Virus record (IMG/VR): IMGVR_UViG_3300031857_001433
Span: 1 to 23,471 of that record
From: a virus
Reading direction: 5' to 3' (one strand)
Length of the DNA stretch: 23,471 nt
Shown here: one piece after another, positions 2,038 through 9,506 of the stretch
Layout of the letters: every line of letters begins with the position of its first letter
Numbering within the stretch: position 1 is the stretch's first letter
Program-made: the position numbers and the translations under genes
Notes under the pieces: generated by a model
Database searches by the model: none
Seen by the model: the letters and a program-made list of their open reading frames with translations, nothing else
Told to the model about the DNA's origin: nothing

Positions 2038-3114
2038 CTACTTCGTTGGCGCAATGGCCGCTGCAGTTTTTTCAACAGATGCAATACCAGCAGAAGCCAT
2101 AAGGTTCATAGCGATGCTTACGTCTGTTCTAATTGGGGTCATATCTTGAGCAAAAGCAATATGAGTTACGTTTAGGTTGTTTATATACCCTACGTAAGAC
2201 AAAGGACCAATATCAACACGCAAAAGCGTTGCAGCTAGGTAACCAATATCTCCAGTAGAACGACCGGTAATACTCTTCCAATCAGGTCCGTTAACCGCTT
2301 TATACAGATACTCTAAATCAGCAACTGTTCCATAGTTAACAAGGTCTAATATTTTGTCAGAAATTTTTCCAGCGTCTGCTTCTGCAAAAAAGCCAGTTTT
2401 GTAAAACTCAGCCATTCTTTCAAACGTTGCTGCAGACCCAGACCTTTGATCTAACTGTAGGTCAAACTCTTTTTGTAGCAAATGTTTCATACAAGCAAAA
2501 TCGTTAGTTCTATCTAAACGCAGCTGTAAAGAAAGAGTTTCCCCGCTTGGGAAGGCTCCGGCTACTGAAGCAAAGATGTCTGCAGGGTGCGGAGTAACTT
2601 CGGTGTTAAGCGCAACAGAAGTGCTAAAGGTGTCTGGGTTCCACATAAATTGAAAACCAATTCTTCTATCTTTACCAGTACTCTGAGTTTTTTCTTCACC
2701 AGTAGCCGTAACGTATGTGTTGTTAGCGTTGTAGTACCACCAGATACGACCGCGTCTGTACTTTTCAGGAACTTCTCCGGGAGGAGTTGTGTAACCCCAT
2801 TTGCCCGGCTCTATGTATAGATCTGGTTCAACTATCTTTGGTTTTACAGGCAGGCTCCATTGATGTGGAGGTAAATTCCAGTCATAATCAATTGGAAGTT
2901 TTAACGGCTTTACTTCTTTGTTCTTCTTGTTTTTGTTCTTTGATTTTTTATCTTTCTTTTTCTTTTGTTCTTCAGCCGCACGTACTTTTTGACCTTCTGT
3001 TAGCCTTCTAAAACGTGCTCTTTCAGCCTCATCTTCGGCAGTTGCGTTAGGGTACTGAGTACCATAATTTTGAGGTGCAGTAGTTGTGCTAAACGTGATA
3101 CCTTCAATTGGCAT
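2038..3114 (-). CDS. Tube-baseplate adaptor, CIS tube-protein-like
   Basis: A 358-residue tail protein. Residues 152-170 (IGFQFMWNPDTFSTSVALN) resemble the 'F-F-NP' signature of the contractile injection system tube-adaptor family (Afp7/Pvc7 N-terminal domain), and 'LSLQLRLDRTNDF' fits a tube-like beta strand. In those systems the protein links the last tube ring to the hub and is encoded next to a LysM protein, as here. Residues 50-67 form an unusual run of Lys and Asn, probably a disordered linker; aromatic and proline-rich sequence follows (residues 70-135). ATG at 3114 overlaps the tape-measure stop as TAATG. The role is inferred from the NP motif and gene order; T4 gp48/gp54-type function is the nearest parallel. 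Confidence 0.6.
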   Translation of the reverse strand: MPIEGITFSTTTAPQNYGTQYPNATAEDEAERARFRRLTEGQKVRAAEEQKKKKDKKSKNKNKKNKEVKPLKLPIDYDWNLPPHQWSLPVKPKIVEPDLYIEPGKWGYTTPPGEVPEKYRRGRIWWYYNANNTYVTATGEEKTQSTGKDRRIGFQFMWNPDTFSTSVALNTEVTPHPADIFASVAGAFPSGETLSLQLRLDRTNDFACMKHLLQKEFDLQLDQRSGSAATFERMAEFYKTGFFAEADAGKISDKILDLVNYGTVADLEYLYKAVNGPDWKSITGRSTGDIGYLAATLLRVDIGPLSYVGYINNLNVTHIAFAQDMTPIRTDVSIAMNLMASAGIASVEKTAAAIAPTK

Positions 3115-5441
3115 TACTTAGACACCGCCTTTTCTCTTATATTGTCCACACTAAGAATCTTTTTAACTTCCCTAGCAATTTCTTTTGCATCTGCCGCTGT
3201 TTTTTCAGGCATATGGAAGTTTACCGTTACTCCGCCATAATTAACTGTTGCTCCATGGGATTGAGCATTTGTCATTGATCCCATGTCAGTTGAAGACACA
3301 ATAGAAGGACCACCAGAACCAATAATTAGACCCGATGGATTTCGGCTCATTACTAGATCTGAACTAGGTGCAGGCTGTGCTCCCTCAACAATAGACGGAG
3401 TTCCTGCGCCCGCAAGCCATGCGCTTGGATCCATCTTTTGACCATTTTTGCGTACCTCAAAGTGAAGGTGGGCTCCGGTAGATTGTCCAGAGTTTCCGCT
3501 ATAACCAACAAGGTCTCCAGCTTTAACACGAGTTCCACCAGTAGCTATCTTGCTACTTAAGTGGCCATAAAATAGTTGTGCCCCATCTTCTGTAACAAGC
3601 TTTATGTAATTTCCAAAACCAGGAGCGTCATAAGGTGTTGCTTCTATAACACCATTAGCGGATGCAAAAACTGGAGTGCCTTCTGGCAAACCGTAGTCAA
3701 TTCCGCCGTGACCTTCTCCGTAGGATGGGCTCTTCTTTCCATTAAACATTAAGTGACGAACTACACCAAACGGACTTGTAATTGAGTAATTTCCTTGGAA
3801 CGGCATTACATAGCCGGAAGCTCCTGCGCCCTCTCCGCCACCTTTACCGCCAGGATTGCTGTTTCTAGCAATTCCAACTCCACCTTGAACAGCGCCTACA
3901 GCAGTTCCAGCAATTGCTCCAGGAAGACCTCCAGCAACTAATCCAGTAGCTGCGCCTTGTCCAGTATCAAAAGCAAAATTTCCAATATCTCTAATAAATT
4001 CAGGTCCAGCATAATTTTCGTTTAACCAATCCTGGACTTTATCTAGTCCAGCGTAAGCTCCAGCAGCAAGACCAGCTCTTCCTAAACCTCCCAAGAAACT
4101 TTTTGGCATGAACTTGCCAAATTTTCCAAACAAACCGCCCTTGGCTCCACCGGCTGCTGTTGCACCACCGCCACCACCAAATAAATTTTTAATTCCGCCA
4201 AAAGCTTTTCCAGCCATCATTGCGGCGCCACCACCAAGTACTCCAAGGATTCCTGCGCCAGCACCATTACCTGATGCTCCAATTGTGTCAATAAAACCTT
4301 TACCTTCAAGAATTTTACGGAACGCATCTCCCATTAAACCCGCATCTCTTGCTATGTCGGCAACTTTATTGCTTGCCGCTGCAAGAAGATCATTAGCAGC
4401 TTCAAATCCTTTTAGAACAGATGGGGCAACTGCTTGAGTAGCATTTAACGATGCTGCGTTTTTATCGCTTGTACTTAAAACGGCACTAGTGGTTGCGCCT
4501 TCTTGAGCCAAAGTCGCTTTATTTAGAGAGGATCCTTTACCACCAGTTCCAGCAAGAAGCATAAGTTCTGAAATAACTGATTGACGAAGGATTGGGTCAT
4601 TGCCAAAATATTGGTTAAGCATTGAGTCAAGAGCATTACCAGGTTGCAATGAGAACGAAATTTGTTCTTTAGTGATTGCACCTTCGCCAGTCTTACCTTT
4701 GTTAAGTACTTTCCAAAGGTCTTTAGCAATGTCTTGGAATCCACGCATCATTCCATCTGCGCCACGAACGTTAACGCCAATCATGCGAAGCATGTTTACG
4801 TTACGTCCTTGGTTTAACGCAGCTGTAGCCTGCATACCTCCAGATAGACCAACACCTGGCATTAAGTTAGATATTGCTGCTGCGCTTTGACCAACTTGAT
4901 TAAAGTTCTTTAAGCCAGGCATTATGCCCATGCTTGCGCCAAGCATTGTGGCGCGGGCTGCGTCTAAAGTATCAGTAGTAGTTCCTTGACGAGCCATTCG
5001 CATTTGAGTTGCGTTGGCATTGGCTCCACCATAGAAACCAAAACGGGATCTTAATAAATCTTGTTCAAAAGATTGTTCAACTGTAGGAATGCCCTGCAAT
5101 CCAGCAAGAGCAATTTTGCCAGTTCCTTTTAGTAACGCTGCGCCAGCGCTCTTTAGGAATCCTCCAAAGCCACCGCCTTGGCTTCCATCATTTTCTGTAG
5201 CAGTTTTTGTTCCCGTGGAAGTTCCCATACTTCCATTGAGAAGATTGCCTGAACCGCCACCAGGGAAAGAGCCTTTTAAGTTTCTAGATATCTCCGCCGA
5301 TAAATCGCGGGTGCGCTCAAGCTCTTTATTTAACTGTTTAAAGGCAGACGTAAGATCGGCAACAAGTTCGGTTTTGCGACCGAAAATGCCACCACCGCCA
5401 CTGGTTCCCATGGCTGTGCCGGTATTTTTTTTAGCCAACAC
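3114..5441 (-). CDS. Tape measure protein with C-terminal M23 peptidase
   Basis: The 775-residue product sets tail length and probably degrades peptidoglycan at entry. Residues 20-60 are coiled-coil-like. A long Gly/Ala-rich body (roughly 60-540) holds hydrophobic helical stretches around 410-530, as in tape measures that insert into membranes. Residues about 545-690 form an M23 (LytM-type) zinc metallopeptidase: HGGID with His578 and Asp582 as zinc ligands, then HLHFEV with His658 and His660. All expected catalytic residues are present. The start is taken as GTG (5441-5439), sharing one base with the stop of the frameshifted chaperone ORF (TAGTG), with a TAGGAG site just upstream. An A8 run lies at codons 3-5. 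At about 1.5 angstrom per residue for the non-enzymatic part, a tail near 80-115 nm would follow; this is a rule of thumb. Confidence 0.9.
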   Translation of the reverse strand: MLAKKNTGTAMGTSGGGGIFGRKTELVADLTSAFKQLNKELERTRDLSAEISRNLKGSFPGGGSGNLLNGSMGTSTGTKTATENDGSQGGGFGGFLKSAGAALLKGTGKIALAGLQGIPTVEQSFEQDLLRSRFGFYGGANANATQMRMARQGTTTDTLDAARATMLGASMGIMPGLKNFNQVGQSAAAISNLMPGVGLSGGMQATAALNQGRNVNMLRMIGVNVRGADGMMRGFQDIAKDLWKVLNKGKTGEGAITKEQISFSLQPGNALDSMLNQYFGNDPILRQSVISELMLLAGTGGKGSSLNKATLAQEGATTSAVLSTSDKNAASLNATQAVAPSVLKGFEAANDLLAAASNKVADIARDAGLMGDAFRKILEGKGFIDTIGASGNGAGAGILGVLGGGAAMMAGKAFGGIKNLFGGGGGATAAGGAKGGLFGKFGKFMPKSFLGGLGRAGLAAGAYAGLDKVQDWLNENYAGPEFIRDIGNFAFDTGQGAATGLVAGGLPGAIAGTAVGAVQGGVGIARNSNPGGKGGGEGAGASGYVMPFQGNYSITSPFGVVRHLMFNGKKSPSYGEGHGGIDYGLPEGTPVFASANGVIEATPYDAPGFGNYIKLVTEDGAQLFYGHLSSKIATGGTRVKAGDLVGYSGNSGQSTGAHLHFEVRKNGQKMDPSAWLAGAGTPSIVEGAQPAPSSDLVMSRNPSGLIIGSGGPSIVSSTDMGSMTNAQSHGATVNYGGVTVNFHMPEKTAADAKEIAREVKKILSVDNIREKAVSK

Positions 5442-5596
5442 TAACTCCTACGTCTGTTAATGGCTCGTTCGAGCCAGTTCTTTCTTTCTCTGAAAGACAG
5501 TGACAGTACATCTGTCAAAGTCCAGCCGGGGTATGCTCGAGTTAGTGCTTCAAATTGGTCCAGTAAGTTTTCGTAATCTTCGTGCTTATATGCGAA
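5441..5596 (-). CDS. Frameshifted C-terminal extension of tail assembly chaperone
   Basis: This is an open frame of 50 codons after the shift point, in the +1 frame relative to the chaperone gene, ending at TAG 5443-5441. It has no ATG or GTG start and no ribosome binding site of its own; the frame opens only after a TAG at 5608-5606. The peptide is strongly protein-like: acidic HEDYENLLDQFEALTRAYPG, then a TLTDVLSLSF stretch and a basic RERKNWLERAINRRRS end. Tail assembly chaperones of most long-tailed phages come as a short form and a frameshifted long form, encoded between tube and tape measure, exactly this position. The fused product would be about 312 residues. Use of this frame by frameshifting is inference. 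Confidence 0.65.
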   Translation of the reverse strand, partial: FAYKHEDYENLLDQFEALTRAYPGWTLTDVLSLSFRERKNWLERAINRRRS

Positions 5597-6380
5597 ACAA
5601 AGCAGCTAAGGTCAACGGCATAGGAATATCCTCACCGCATGCCTCGCATGCCTTCTTCACCTCCCCAAGGCGTGGGCCTGGGTTACGTTCAAGAATCTCT
5701 TGGACAATTGCTTCACGGTCTTTCCAACTTAGTTTCAAGACCGTAGATGCTCCGATAGATGGGCTTCCATTTATTGAAGCAACGCAACCTGCCAAAAGGA
5801 TTGTGTTTAGTTCAGCTGAGTTCTTGTCGTTGTTTTCAAGCAAACGACGTTGTGTAACTCCCGTAGGAAGTCCAACAACTACTGTTCCCAACTTAGACTC
5901 ATATGTCCAGAGTCGATCTTCTTTTGGATCTTTTAGTTCGACAATTGGAATGTCCTTGGTTAGATCCAGAGTTAAAGTTTGCTCTGTTCTACAGGACGGA
6001 CAAGTGCCTGTGAAATCAATTGTGTTTCCAAAGGTTGCTCTACGGATTCCAATTAATATCGCATCTCTGTCGCCTGAAAGAAGAGTTTCTAAGTCTTCCT
6101 TAGACGCTTGCTCCATACCTAAACTGACCAGACCTCTTTGAAGCATTGTGTTTAAAGCACGACCAGTAGTTCCTGCTCTAGCAACAGCTTCTTCGTCTGC
6201 GCCGTTTAACTCTCTAACCTCAACATATTTGACCAAGGCGCCTTCCCGATTGATATATCCACCGGGAAGTGCGACCTCGGTATCAGACGGAGCCTGTGTT
6301 TCTACTTTTACAACAGGCTCCGCTGCTAAAGCTTTGACCGCTTGGTTAACGACTTTTGGATCTGAAATTAATTCTGCCAC
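5586..6380 (-). CDS. Tail assembly chaperone (gp26/T4_baseplate-like), zinc-ribbon
   Basis: A 264-residue protein between tail tube and tape measure. In contractile phages this slot holds a tail assembly or baseplate-hub assembly chaperone. The layout matches what I recall of the T4 gp26-like family: an N-terminal 'LPGGYINREGALVKYVEVRELNGADEE' region, then a Cys-X2-Cys pair (Cys127, Cys130) inside 'TGTCPSCRTEQ', and a second pair near the end (Cys245, Cys248 in 'ACEACGED'). The paired CxxC motifs suggest a bound zinc. Start is GTG at 6380-6378 with an AGGAG site about nine bases upstream. The last codons (UUG UUU CGC AUA UAA) hold a likely slippage site leading to a longer product. Exact family name is from memory; the chaperone role rests mainly on position and the two-frame arrangement. 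Confidence 0.65.
   Translation of the reverse strand: MAELISDPKVVNQAVKALAAEPVVKVETQAPSDTEVALPGGYINREGALVKYVEVRELNGADEEAVARAGTTGRALNTMLQRGLVSLGMEQASKEDLETLLSGDRDAILIGIRRATFGNTIDFTGTCPSCRTEQTLTLDLTKDIPIVELKDPKEDRLWTYESKLGTVVVGLPTGVTQRRLLENNDKNSAELNTILLAGCVASINGSPSIGASTVLKLSWKDREAIVQEILERNPGPRLGEVKKACEACGEDIPMPLTLAALFRI
5592..5597 (-). promoter_or_regulatory. Candidate +1 ribosomal frameshift site UUU_CGC
   Basis: The codons TTT (5597-5595) and CGC (5594-5592) lie two codons before the chaperone stop TAA (5588-5586). A P-site tRNA-Phe that moves forward one base would re-pair on UUC, its cognate codon, and enter the open frame that runs to 5441. UUU_CG is the same core as the +1 shift site of influenza PA-X (UCC UUU CGU). 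A -2 shift would give the same frame. No -1 heptamer would lead to this frame. Confidence 0.5.
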
Positions 6381-6400: not shown

Positions 6401-7021
6401 TTAGAGTGCTGCCGGCCTTACTGGGTCGTATCCACCGGTTCCATTGGTAAAGAATACCGAAAGTCCTTCGTGGACAAGTCCAAGGGTTTCGACCATAAGG
6501 TTGTTTCCGCCAGCATCTAGGTCAGAGTAGTTCAAAGTTGAAATCCATGCGTTGTGCACATGGAAGCCCATCTTTGGAGTATTTGATCCACCTTCACCGC
6601 TTGCGGTTGCTGTTGCGTTACTTGCTGCTGGATGATCAAGAACATAAATCTTGATATCGCAACGGAAGTCTTTACCACTGGTCAAAGCAATTCCGTCTCC
6701 GGCTGCTGCTGCAAACAGTGTACGCATCCAATCAATAGCCTGGTTGTTACCAAAGATAACTCCACGGTCCATAGTGATTGGGTTGAATGTTGTCATACCA
6801 GGTACCTGGTGAATGGTGGTGTTGTATCCACCTTCGCGGTACGCGATACTTTGTGTGTTAATGCCGAGACCGCTGATTGAACGGAAACCGCCAGTGAAGC
6901 CGGTAATCCGCTTGTCCACCGAAGAACCTTGTTGTGGTGGAAGGAACTCAGCGATAAATCGGAACGAGCGTAACGGATCGGTCGCCACACTCGAGAACCG
7001 ATTAATTGTTGTATCTGCCAT
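6401..7021 (-). CDS. Tail tube protein (gp19-like)
   Basis: A 206-residue protein of the T4 gp19-like tube family that stacks in hexamers to form the inner tail tube. The N-terminal 'DPLRSFRFIAEF' is the usual opening strand. 'GFRSISGLG' followed by 'IAYREGGYNTTIHQVPGM' and 'ITMDRGVIFGN' is the typical order of this family: a 'v-GL' loop, an 'yrEGG' strand, then 'p-tl-rG'. The middle segment 'GFHVHNAWISTLNYSDLDAGGNNLMVETLGLVHEGL' fits the conserved 'naw-..y-..ld...n-v..e.iel-heG' end. Start ATG at 7021 has AAAGGAG nine bases upstream. It lies 15 bases after the sheath gene, the normal sheath-tube pair. Confidence 0.93.
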   Translation of the reverse strand: MADTTINRFSSVATDPLRSFRFIAEFLPPQQGSSVDKRITGFTGGFRSISGLGINTQSIAYREGGYNTTIHQVPGMTTFNPITMDRGVIFGNNQAIDWMRTLFAAAAGDGIALTSGKDFRCDIKIYVLDHPAASNATATASGEGGSNTPKMGFHVHNAWISTLNYSDLDAGGNNLMVETLGLVHEGLSVFFTNGTGGYDPVRPAAL

Positions 7022-7036
7022 GTTTGGTTATCTCCT

Positions 7037-8533
7037 TTACGCCGTAGTAACGGTGGTGCCACCGTCAAACTGACCGATTTTAATAACTACGAACTCGGCT
7101 GGGCGTTGTAGAGCCACACCAACTTCGATGTTAACTAATCCAGCGTCAATGGACTGTTGTGGGTTCAATTCAGCGTCACATTTTACATAAAATGCTTGTG
7201 CTGGGATTGAGCCACGTAGACCGCCTGAGCGCCAGAAGTTATTTAAGAAGCCTTCCAAAGTTGCAACAATTCGACGCCAAGTCTTTTCATCGTTTGGCTC
7301 AAAGATTGCGAACTGGGTTAGCTCTGATAAGGACTTGCGTAGATAGATGAGAGTACGACGAACTGGAACATACTTGTCTACGTATGAACCAAGAAGCGTG
7401 CGTGAACCCATAACTACAATTCCTGAACCAGGAACAAACTTGATTGCGTTAACTGCAGCCGCGTTGCTGTTCATTCCATCCAACTGAGCGTTGGTTAGTG
7501 GACGAACTGAAACTGCGCCTCCAACTCGAGTGCTGAGACCAGCAGGTGCCTTAAAGACTCCTCGAGCTGCATCGGTTCCTAGGTATAGACCAACAATTGC
7601 TCCACCTGGTGCTACTTCACGAGTAACTCCTGGGGTTGTAACTGCTGGGTCTTTAATTGTGATTGGTGGGTAGTACACAGCACCGTAAGAGGTAGCTGTA
7701 TAAGAATCTGCTCTTGTAATTTGATTATCTACAGATCCAAAAACTGGGTCAATAACAACAAATACGTCTCCGCGGTTTGATGCGTAGGTAGTCATTGCGT
7801 TGACAGCAGCTGCTTCTGTAACTCCAGGAGCGTTTAGAACTAGCGAGTTCAAGACAGTATCAAAACGAACAACTTCGTTAGATATTTCTACCTCACTAAC
7901 AGAACCAGTTCCGTTAGTTCCACCAGCTAATGATTGGTTTGTAGAAACTACTGGTAGTCGGGCTGAGCCGGTAGCAGTAGATCCTTCATCAACAGCTGAG
8001 ATGAACTTAGATTGAGAATTGATGATATCAATCACATAGCGATCGTTACCAGGTGTCATAGAAAGATCTGTGTATCTTTCTACAACATTGCTATTTGCGG
8101 TTCCACCAAACTTTACAGTGATGTCTACATTGTTTGCTGTAGCAGAGTTCGCAATGCTGATATTAATGTCATTTCCCCAAGCACCAGCATTCTTTGAATT
8201 GATGGTGAGGGTAGCGTCTGCCGTTGGGGTGACGCGGTCATTAAATGTACGGGTAGCAACGTCTGCATCAGCATTTGCTGCACGCAAGAAGTATGCTTGA
8301 TTACCACCGTTTGAGAAGAACAACAGCGCTGCAACGTGCAACGGTGAGTCGTTCTCCCAGCCACCATACAGACTGACGTATTGACTCCAAGATGTGACCA
8401 GAGTTGGAACAAGCGGACCACGATCTACGACGCCAACAAATGCAGCGATGGACTGTGAAGTGGCACTTTGAACTGGGGTTACTAAGTTAAGGGATTCCTC
8501 AACATAGACACCAGGCCGAAGGTATACAGCCAT
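7037..8533 (-). CDS. Contractile tail sheath protein
   Basis: A 498-residue sheath subunit, which surrounds the tube and shortens at infection. It opens with the family signature 'YLRPGVYVEE', and an early 'FVGVVDRGP' plus 'YVSLYGG' follow as in other sheath proteins. The C-terminal domain has 'LRKSLSELTQFAIFEPND', a 'LWRRIV'-like helix (TWRRIVATLEGFLNNFWRSG), the 'YVKCD' strand and 'VALQRPAEFVVIKI', the conserved sheath C-terminal handshake region. The central part (about residues 100-260) is variable and Thr/Asn-rich, probably the surface-exposed domain. Start ATG at 8533 follows AAAGGAG at good spacing. The gap to the upstream gene is 38 bases with nothing convincing in it. Confidence 0.95.
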   Translation of the reverse strand: MAVYLRPGVYVEESLNLVTPVQSATSQSIAAFVGVVDRGPLVPTLVTSWSQYVSLYGGWENDSPLHVAALLFFSNGGNQAYFLRAANADADVATRTFNDRVTPTADATLTINSKNAGAWGNDINISIANSATANNVDITVKFGGTANSNVVERYTDLSMTPGNDRYVIDIINSQSKFISAVDEGSTATGSARLPVVSTNQSLAGGTNGTGSVSEVEISNEVVRFDTVLNSLVLNAPGVTEAAAVNAMTTYASNRGDVFVVIDPVFGSVDNQITRADSYTATSYGAVYYPPITIKDPAVTTPGVTREVAPGGAIVGLYLGTDAARGVFKAPAGLSTRVGGAVSVRPLTNAQLDGMNSNAAAVNAIKFVPGSGIVVMGSRTLLGSYVDKYVPVRRTLIYLRKSLSELTQFAIFEPNDEKTWRRIVATLEGFLNNFWRSGGLRGSIPAQAFYVKCDAELNPQQSIDAGLVNIEVGVALQRPAEFVVIKIGQFDGGTTVTTA

Positions 8534-8571
8534 TATTTATCTCCTTTGATTTTATCTAGTTTGCACATATG

Positions 8572-9192
8572 TTAAACCAACTCGAATCCCGAAGGGGGGT
8601 TCCCTGTTGTCATGATGTTTGCCGATTGAATCTGTGGTGTTGGAACAGACGGCGTGTAAGGCGTCATTTCACTTACCACTCTGATACTAAAGACGTTTCT
8701 TAGTAAACGTCTTCCATCCTCAATGGAGTCGCGTTTTACGAATCCCTCGAGAAACATATGCCTAGCAACATAGCCATTGCCATTCGCTTGCGGAATGATG
8801 AGGTGACCATATTTGCCAGGAATTTTTCTATTTAGCATTTCAAAAATTATTGTTCTATCGTGGCGTGGGTGACGAGCAAAAGAACTAACTTGATAATAAA
8901 GATCGTAGACCACTGGGGCGTAGTAACTGTGTCTAGCGTTGCTTGACGCTTGTTGAGTTCCACGATTGGTGTTATCAATCCAAAAACCAGAACTTTGACG
9001 ATCGTTAGCCGGTTGAATGTCAAACAAGTCAATAACCATGTATGGGTATTCTTGAGCTTTTAACTCTACGTCCGGATAACCAAACCATACTTTTACAGGT
9101 CTTGTGCTGTCTTTTGCATCTTGCACTTGAATGCCTTGAAGATGTGTTTTAAGAGCCTTGTCTTCTGCATACAAAAATGATGTGTCGCTCAT
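8572..9192 (-). CDS. Putative tail terminator/completion protein
   Basis: A 206-residue protein just upstream of the sheath. Residues about 45-60 (EYPYMVIDLFDIQPAND) resemble the 'P-v-ly-fdI' strand of tail terminator or cap proteins, and the central 'SYYAPVVYDLYYQVSSFARH' with 'DRTIIFEMLNRKIP' recalls the beta strand-helix order of that fold (strand, then helix of 'd-.il..l...l'). Such proteins cap the tube and sheath at the head end and are commonly encoded before the sheath gene. The start overlaps the preceding gene by four bases (ATGA). The family is not certain; a neck protein is the other possibility. Confidence 0.5.
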   Translation of the reverse strand: MSDTSFLYAEDKALKTHLQGIQVQDAKDSTRPVKVWFGYPDVELKAQEYPYMVIDLFDIQPANDRQSSGFWIDNTNRGTQQASSNARHSYYAPVVYDLYYQVSSFARHPRHDRTIIFEMLNRKIPGKYGHLIIPQANGNGYVARHMFLEGFVKRDSIEDGRRLLRNVFSIRVVSEMTPYTPSVPTPQIQSANIMTTGNPPSGFELV

Positions 9193-9506
9193 GGCAGAAT
9201 CCCCTTATCAAATAAGTAATCAAGTGCATCGCCTTCAATCGCTTCTCTAATTGCTACATCTGCTTTAGTCATAAAGGGGCGGATTACTACAGTAGGAGGT
9301 CTATCCTCAGTTCCGTATTCAAGATTAAATATTTCATCTTCACGGAACTCAAAATACTCAAGTGAAATTACACCCTTATTTTGGGTTAGTTCAATTGGAT
9401 TACCCCAGCCAGCATCGGCCGTCGCTTCTTGAAGAAGAGGATCTAACTCCTCAACCAGACTTTCGGCTAAACGCGGGGCACGTGCTTCGAAGCTATTAGT
9501 GTTCAC
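9189..9506 (-). CDS. Small acidic head-tail region protein, function unknown
   Basis: A 105-residue acidic protein that I do not recognise. It starts at GTG (9506-9504), overlapping the previous stop as GTGA, and its end overlaps the next gene by four bases, so it belongs to the tail operon. The N-terminal part (residues 8-35) is predicted helical; the middle holds 'ISLEYFEFREDEIFNLEYG' and 'PPTVVIRPFMTKAD', which look like beta strands. Position before a tail terminator and sheath suggests a neck or tail-completion role, by context only. Confidence 0.6.
   Translation of the reverse strand: MNTNSFEARAPRLAESLVEELDPLLQEATADAGWGNPIELTQNKGVISLEYFEFREDEIFNLEYGTEDRPPTVVIRPFMTKADVAIREAIEGDALDYLFDKGILP

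Follow-up and report, generated by a model that had tools for sequence, protein, structure and literature searches.

A tail assembly chaperone gene in a virus sequence of 23,471 nucleotides (nt; IMG/VR record IMGVR_UViG_3300031857_001433, this whole stretch being called the window below) appears to encode two proteins. Comparison with its relatives indicates, with a probability that we put at roughly nine in ten, that a short and a long form of the chaperone are produced through +1 slippage of tRNA-Phe at the sequence UUU_CGC. Most ribosomes would terminate after ...LFRI and release the short form of 264 amino acids (aa). In a minority, the tRNA-Phe that occupies UUU in the P site while the Arg codon CGC stands in the A site would slip forward by one base and re-pair on UUC, after which the +1 frame would be read and a 50-residue three-helix domain added, giving a long form of 312 aa (...LAALF-AYKHEDYENLL...). 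We infer that the slip takes place on the ribosome and that the two forms may act like G and GT of phage lambda, in which case they would load the tail tube protein onto the tape measure protein.

The putative shift site and the frame beyond it

The chaperone gene occupies positions 6380–5586 on the minus strand of the window and its 3′ end reads TTG TTT CGC ATA TAA. The putative shift site TTT_CGC spans 5597–5592, with TTT (5597–5595) in the P site and CGC (5594–5592) in the A site; on a +1 step TTT would re-pair as TTC. The second frame, in +1 phase on the same strand, is open from stop to stop over 5605–5441 (54 aa). Counted from the TTC at 5596, the C-terminal extension (5596–5441) comprises 51 residues and ends with a TAG at 5443–5441; the last letter of this stop is also the first of the GTG with which the downstream gene (5441–3114) begins, in the overlap TAGTG. 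The original prediction, made from the letters of the window alone, had described this gene end and the frame continuing to the overlap, and both were confirmed on the minus strand; its count of 50 codons for the second frame has to be replaced by 51 residues. It had also seen no start codon in this frame, which holds for the first half: over the whole frame ATG, GTG and TTG occur just once, as a TTG placed 70 nt after the stop of the chaperone and midway through the conserved domain. Upstream, the +1 frame is closed by a TAG (5608–5606) located 20 nt 5′ of the chaperone stop, so that any shift is confined to the last few codons, and within this overlap an in-phase UUU_CGN is present with the +1 frame open. 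The −1 frame of the window closes 44 nt past the chaperone stop and offers no −1 slippery heptamer.

The site is kept among relatives. A scan for close relatives retained the best 80 of 210 IMG/VR loci. In 78 of these the sequence extends to the end of the chaperone, while the contigs of L063 and L080 stop short of it. All 78 read TTT CGN, one codon and then TAA or TAG, followed by 44–50 more codons in the +1 frame. Three more scans and isolate phages brought the set to 182 loci examined, 179 reaching the chaperone end and 110 of them distinct. In the clade of the window TTT_CGN was found in 92 of 92 distinct loci, window included (53 CGT, 28 CGC, 11 CGA). A clade of Streptomyces phages, whose chaperones are about 36% identical to that of the window, has TTT_CGN in 10 of its 14 distinct loci and TTT_CAG in the other four. 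UUU_C is thus kept in 106 of 106 distinct loci of the two clades, and in all 106 the second frame is open, with a median of 142 nt past the stop in the window clade and 229 nt in the Streptomyces clade. Two of the close loci, L053 and L070, have in-frame stops within the chaperone, away from the shift site; L053 retains the site and L070 is a duplicate in the survey.

The letters past the chaperone stop evolve as coding sequence in the +1 frame. In the window clade the median ratio of nonsynonymous to synonymous substitution rates (dN/dS) was 0.19 in this frame (890 usable of 4186 pairs), whereas the same letters gave 1.03 and 2.11 in the other two frames. The corresponding values for the Streptomyces clade were 0.18 (22 usable of 91 pairs) against 0.99 and 1.64. 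The second frame is under purifying selection in both clades. Together with the conservation of UUU_C, this supports the claim of the original prediction that a +1 shift at UUU_CGC extends the chaperone, and its proposal to compare relatives was answered by a site and a second frame present in every window-clade locus.

These comparative data already refute an assembly error or a true inactivating frameshift mutation as the cause of the split frame. The in-frame stop in L053, which is a distinct locus, indicates that some contigs are defective. In contrast, the phase of the second frame is the same in all 106 distinct loci, including the isolates BRock, LuckySocke, GiJojo and pSt2308, and a frame created by error or mutation is at odds with the purifying selection.

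An AlphaFold model of the second-frame domain based on 43 sequences consists of three helices with a mean predicted local distance difference test score of 87.3. A fold search with the 51-residue model returned 127 matches up to an E value of 10, none below 0.001; the annotated ones among the 50 matches listed include a hub assembly catalyst of Acinetobacter phage ZZ1, a Klebsiella phage baseplate protein and a truncated open reading frame (ORF) of BRock. Fold matches of such a three-helix piece prove nothing. Two profile matches of the extension fell below their cut-offs and are leads only: DUF6760 (PF20546; 14.7 bits against a cut-off of 27, E 0.032) and P2 GpE (E 0.083).

Start codons and the proposed slippage mechanism

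If the second frame were a separate small gene, with translation that restarted after the chaperone stop or was coupled to termination there, possibly from a non-standard start, no shift would be required. Overlapping genes are common in phages, and the records of BRock, LuckySocke and GiJojo carry a separate, internally started coding sequence at this place; the fourth Streptomyces-phage record of the set L081–L084, pSt2308, has none, and a joined coding sequence occurs in none of the four. The internal starts annotated in these three phages remove conserved residues of the second frame. No start codon was found at a fixed place of the second frame in the 80 close loci and the four Streptomyces phages, and no column has a start codon in most loci. 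ATG, GTG and TTG are wholly absent from the second frame in 20 of the 92 window-clade loci, 27 more have none before +45, and the lone TTG of the window sits too far inside the domain to begin it. Columns with near-cognate codons do exist in the +1 frame, with ATT at −14 in 41 of 92 loci and, at −17, a usual start (15) or CTG (20) in 35 of the 76 loci that are open there. Taken together, this evidence makes a separate gene improbable, and the original prediction's concern that relatives might carry an independent gene with its own start was not substantiated, even though some loci have start codons near the stop.

Such start codons are among several observations that weigh against +1 slippage. 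A usual start codon lies upstream of the stop or at most 15 nt after it in 24 of 92 window-clade loci and 7 of 14 Streptomyces-clade loci, and near the stop in 17 of 29 loci of the other +1 groups and 102 of 153 of the −1 groups described below. The argument from missing starts is consequently strong for the window and weak for the wider family; for the Streptomyces, other +1 and −1 groups the case rests on site conservation, because start codons near the stop are frequent there. An extension in another frame, lacking its own start and conserved among relatives, is in this sense well documented in the window clade and less so outside it. In addition, stimulatory elements were not detected. None of the 92 window-clade loci has a Shine-Dalgarno-like tetramer in the 20 nt that precede TTT, which also speaks against independent initiation at this place; such a tetramer was seen in 2 of 14 Streptomyces loci. 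Excess folding was not found in the 75 nt downstream of the site in 45 loci (mean z +0.40; 4 below −2). Since no stimulator was found, the shift efficiency may be low. CGC, the A-site codon, has a frequency of 7.0 per 1000 codons in this phage, which is not very low, and TTT is used in 275 of 339 other Phe cases in the window clade. As TTT is the usual Phe codon there, its presence in 92 of 92 loci is weak evidence for the site.

The codon argument is stronger in the Streptomyces clade: these phages prefer TTC elsewhere (73 against 35 TTT), and at the site TTT occurs in 14 of 14 loci. For the Arg codon, CGN is found at the site in 92 of 92 window-clade loci, whereas both CGN and AGR occur in six of the seven other columns with a conserved Arg; the seventh is CGC in 90 of 92. 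The other genes of the window contain two further in-frame copies of TTT CGN (three in all, 5.8 expected), so the motif by itself is not absent elsewhere.

The direction of the slip follows from the letters that are kept. In 102 of the 106 loci TTT_C is the only codon of three equal bases in the overlap; the remaining four have TTT_C plus other homotriplets. On UUC, as on UUU, tRNA-Phe is cognate, in agreement with the expectation that this re-pairing would be favorable. The original prediction had left the choice between +1 and −2 open; both end in the same frame, and a −2 shift has been described for Mu-type phages. In the window cognate re-pairing is offered by TTT_C alone, which narrows the choice to +1: after a −2 step on TTG TTT CGC tRNA-Phe would sit on UGU and tRNA-Arg on UUC, neither of which is cognate. 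Some relatives read TTT TTT CGN, where the Phe pair would allow cognate re-pairing after a −2 step, but the conserved letters UUU_C are those that a +1 slip requires, and we regard the −2 route as very improbable. Transcriptional slippage would likewise give mixed products. It usually requires runs much longer than three T, the maximum at this site, and we regard slippage during transcription as the less probable still of these two alternatives to +1 ribosomal slippage.

The gp26/gp51 family and the direction of the probable shift

The short form matches PF12322 (T4_baseplate) with 41.3 bits, above the curated cut-off of 24.5 (E 1.8e-10), which places it in the family of T4 gp26 and gp51; it also matches phrog_150, baseplate hub (E 1.5e-10). 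Its genomic setting is that of lambda G/GT, between the tail tube gene and the presumed tape measure gene. The tube protein of the T4 gp19 family is encoded upstream on the minus strand at 6401–7021 (PF06841, E 4.7e-23), with the tail sheath protein beyond it at 7037–8533 (PF17482, E 1.2e-10; phrog_23, E 2.6e-45), the latter implying a contractile tail. The presumed tape measure protein (minus strand, 3114–5441, 775 aa) starts at the GTG that overlaps the extension TAG. Its name rests on position and length since the tape-measure PHROG matches span the M23 part alone, an M23 peptidase domain at residues 577–672.

Membership in the T4 gp26/gp51 family goes beyond the original prediction, as does the −1 continuation found in relatives at this very position. 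For a family-wide survey, wider scans retained the best 80 of at least 572, the best 80 of at least 594 and the best 80 of at least 555 loci, and three smaller scans kept all 16, 2 and 36. With named phages added this amounted to 392 loci, of which 386 have a chaperone end; 98 of the 386 are duplicates over 420 nt, leaving 288 distinct loci. In L063, L080, L181, L292, L298 and L317 there is no match to the end of the chaperone, or the locus runs off its contig; L086, L087, L186, L187, L189 and L194–L198 were excluded by design. One of the two search patterns in a scan ends in FF, by which 85 cyanophage-like loci were partly preselected for the Phe pair. In 6 of the 288 loci the contig ends within the extension, so that the length given for it is a minimum.

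Every one of these 288 partly preselected loci continues out of frame, over a median of 185 nt compared to 26 nt for the alternative frame. In 287 the frame of the continuation is open further than the other one; in L038 both are open. The putative shift point falls at the same Phe codons in nearly all 288. The continuation is in the +1 frame in 134 loci (121 TTT_CGN, 7 TTT_C in which the next codon is not CGN, 2 TTT_T and 4 without TTT_Y) and in the −1 frame in 154 (147 U_UUU_UUC, 4 U_UUU_UUU, 1 A_AAU_UUU and 2 without a clean heptamer). Among isolates, Bacillus phage SP-15 has UUU_CAC and Listeria phage LIS04 has UUU_UUU; outside the 288, L186 continues in the +1 frame (TTT CTA). In the −1 members a U usually precedes the Phe pair (GAU UUU UUC), whereas the SP-15-like +1 members usually have no such U and carry an Arg codon after the pair (GAG UUU UUU CGU).

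Some members depart from these patterns. The +1 extensions of L306, L309, L311 and L315 lack TTT_Y and have AAU_CCC_A as a candidate site; if this is true, the shifting tRNA would have changed from Phe to Pro. The −1 members Marshall (L204) and D506 (L205) have no standard heptamer, with ATT TTC or CTT TTC alone. In L189 (3001–3930, uncultured phage LR756511) frame 0 passes the Phe run and a comparable small domain is encoded in the −1 frame, in which an ATG follows the chaperone stop at a distance of 2 nt; this frame may be a separate gene.

To relate the direction of the shift to descent, a quick maximum-likelihood tree was built from 285 of the 288 loci, clustered to 75, with the site codons left out and support given by the Shimodaira–Hasegawa-like approximate likelihood ratio test (SH-aLRT) only. 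Direction labels were assigned by seed group. Of the 74 inner branches 22 are starred, and T4 and L302 are on long branches. The window and Streptomyces clades join at an SH-aLRT of 100. Direction needs 2 changes on this tree, as against a mean of about 22 for shuffled labels, with none of 500 shuffles as low; the starred branches alone force at least one change. L302 (1501–2151 plus 182 nt after the stop), with U_UUU_UUU and set to −1 by hand, stands on its long branch beside the +1 SP-15-like clade and is a possible direction switch.

In T4 itself (L194) two genes match PF12322, gp26 (208 aa; 7803–8429) and gp51 (249 aa; 8480–9229). The PF12322 match of gp51 ends at residue 201 with an extension after it, while gp26 has no extension; the two are paralogues, and T4 uses two genes in place of a frameshift. 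In 24 other records a single PF12322 gene was found in 23, LuckySocke showing two pieces of one frame. Flavobacterium phage immuto gave no PF12322 match by profile, and its kinship is a weak protein match (26% identity, E 9e-3). A further arrangement occurs on a Rhizobium plasmid (L187, 2926–3654), where both parts are fused in one frame. Neither T4 nor the Rhizobium fusion has an out-of-frame extension. All 13 plasmid records matched by the Rhizobium protein align over a single stretch that reaches at least residue 233. Judged from their translations, the genes before the Rhizobium fusion look like sheath and tube, and the plasmid loci may be contractile injection systems. Cellular relatives were not found in two scans of genome contigs, one with the chaperone alignment and one with the Rhizobium plasmid protein. 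The two frames were thus found joined without a shift, the other outcome that the original prediction had allowed for, in distant plasmid homologues only, and these fusions point to the second frame being a C-terminal domain of the chaperone.

Profile comparison connects the extensions of most groups. The window and Streptomyces extensions scored 98.2%, Streptomyces and Kyano (cyanophage, −1) 63.5%, Streptomyces and SP-15-like 62.4%, Kyano and SP-15-like 86.4%, jumbo and SP-15-like 93.2%, and Kyano and jumbo 30.5%, with shuffled controls reaching at most 9.1%. The Kyano extension matched the C-terminus of T4 gp51 at 85.9% (shuffled controls no higher than 1.1%). Compared directly, the window extension gave weak values (Kyano 23.5%, SP-15-like 18.2%, jumbo 5.5%, T4 gp51 1.1%, Rhizobium fusion 24.6%), and so did Streptomyces with jumbo (12.2%) and T4 and Rhizobium with the rest (0.1–5.4%). 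Because of these weak direct values, the kinship of the extensions across all clades is transitive. The accessible part of a cyanophage study describes a gp51 of about 20% of the usual length that resembles the C-terminus (PMC3037559), which fits an extension equivalent to the gp51 C-terminus.

From all this it is likely that one chaperone family has kept its recoding point on the same Phe codon or codons while the direction of slippage switched, T4 having two genes and the plasmid homologues a fusion in frame. The cyanophage, T4-like and jumbo-phage lineages would shift −1 at U_UUU_UUC, and the window, Streptomyces-phage, SP-15-like and Streptococcus-phage lineages +1, mostly at UUU_CGN, which would make the +1 branch a large natural use of UUU_CGN in bacteria. 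The partial preselection, the frequent start codons in the −1 groups and the ambiguous L189 weigh against this switch of direction.

Comparison with known systems and implications

Short and long chaperones formed by a −1 shift have long been known, with T4 named as an exception, and UUU_Ynn is described as especially prone to +1 shifting in bacteria, according to the accessible part of a review (PMC5009743). In lambda gpG/gpGT and its P2 counterpart a short protein and a frameshifted extension are tied to the tape measure, as here (same source). Both phages shift −1, whereas the window would shift +1, and no significant sequence kinship was detected (P2 GpE, E as given above). The P2 genes are named E and E′. 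Closer in direction are the chaperone of the archaeal myovirus HSTV-2 and Listeria phage PSA, which the accessible text of the review likewise lists as +1 shifts in structural genes of tailed viruses; the PSA sites are of the type CCC_U (the tail gene has CCC_UGA, the capsid gene CCC_UCC), unlike UUU_CGC (PMC5009743).

The original prediction had noted that the core UUU_CG equals that of the influenza PA-X site, and the motif is indeed identical. UUU_CGN also occurs in plant amalgaviruses, where, as far as the available part of the source goes, all four CGN codons are represented, as they are in these phages (PMC5052127). PA-X and the amalgavirus sites belong to unrelated genes of eukaryotic RNA viruses read by eukaryotic ribosomes, and the likeness is convergence.

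The chaperones of T4-like phages (gp26/gp51) belong to the same family PF12322 and follow the same short/long principle as the window. In Kyanoviridae, phiAS5, PA5oct and others the equivalent Phe codons form a −1 site, U_UUU_UUC, where the window has a putative +1 site at UUU_CGN; T4 has gp26 without and gp51 with the extension as two genes, where the window has one gene and an apparent shift. Vladimirov, Gautam and Davidson (2022) reportedly identified the T4-like chaperone genes as genes 26 and 51 and described frameshifting in other T4-like groups. A conserved −1 site is mentioned for another myovirus group in the accessible part of PMC12846349. The PRFect program, in what is accessible of its description, was trained on 350 positive examples of forward shifts taken from the untested annotations of SEA-PHAGES genomes; by the same text, a general motif for such shifts has yet to be identified (PMC10274946). 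Given these forward cases, +1 chaperone shifts as such are not new. No report of a +1 or UUU_CGN site in the gp26/gp51 family was found in the searchable literature, which consisted mostly of titles and abstract openings, subscription papers lying outside the search. Within this literature the UUU_CGN branch and the switch of direction appear new, whereas T4-like chaperone pairs have already been published.

For annotation, the finding corrects the records of isolated Streptomyces phages, in which the long form is missing or split off as a truncated ORF. The site would also be a simple and testable +1 site for bacteria, consisting of four bases with no stimulator found, kept over diverged phages and matching the PA-X core. 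The comparison suggests that one gene family reaches the same short/long pair by a +1 shift, a −1 shift or gene duplication, with in-frame fusion in plasmid homologues. The existence of several routes to the same pair would mean that in phages selection preserves the pair of products and not the mechanism by which it is made.

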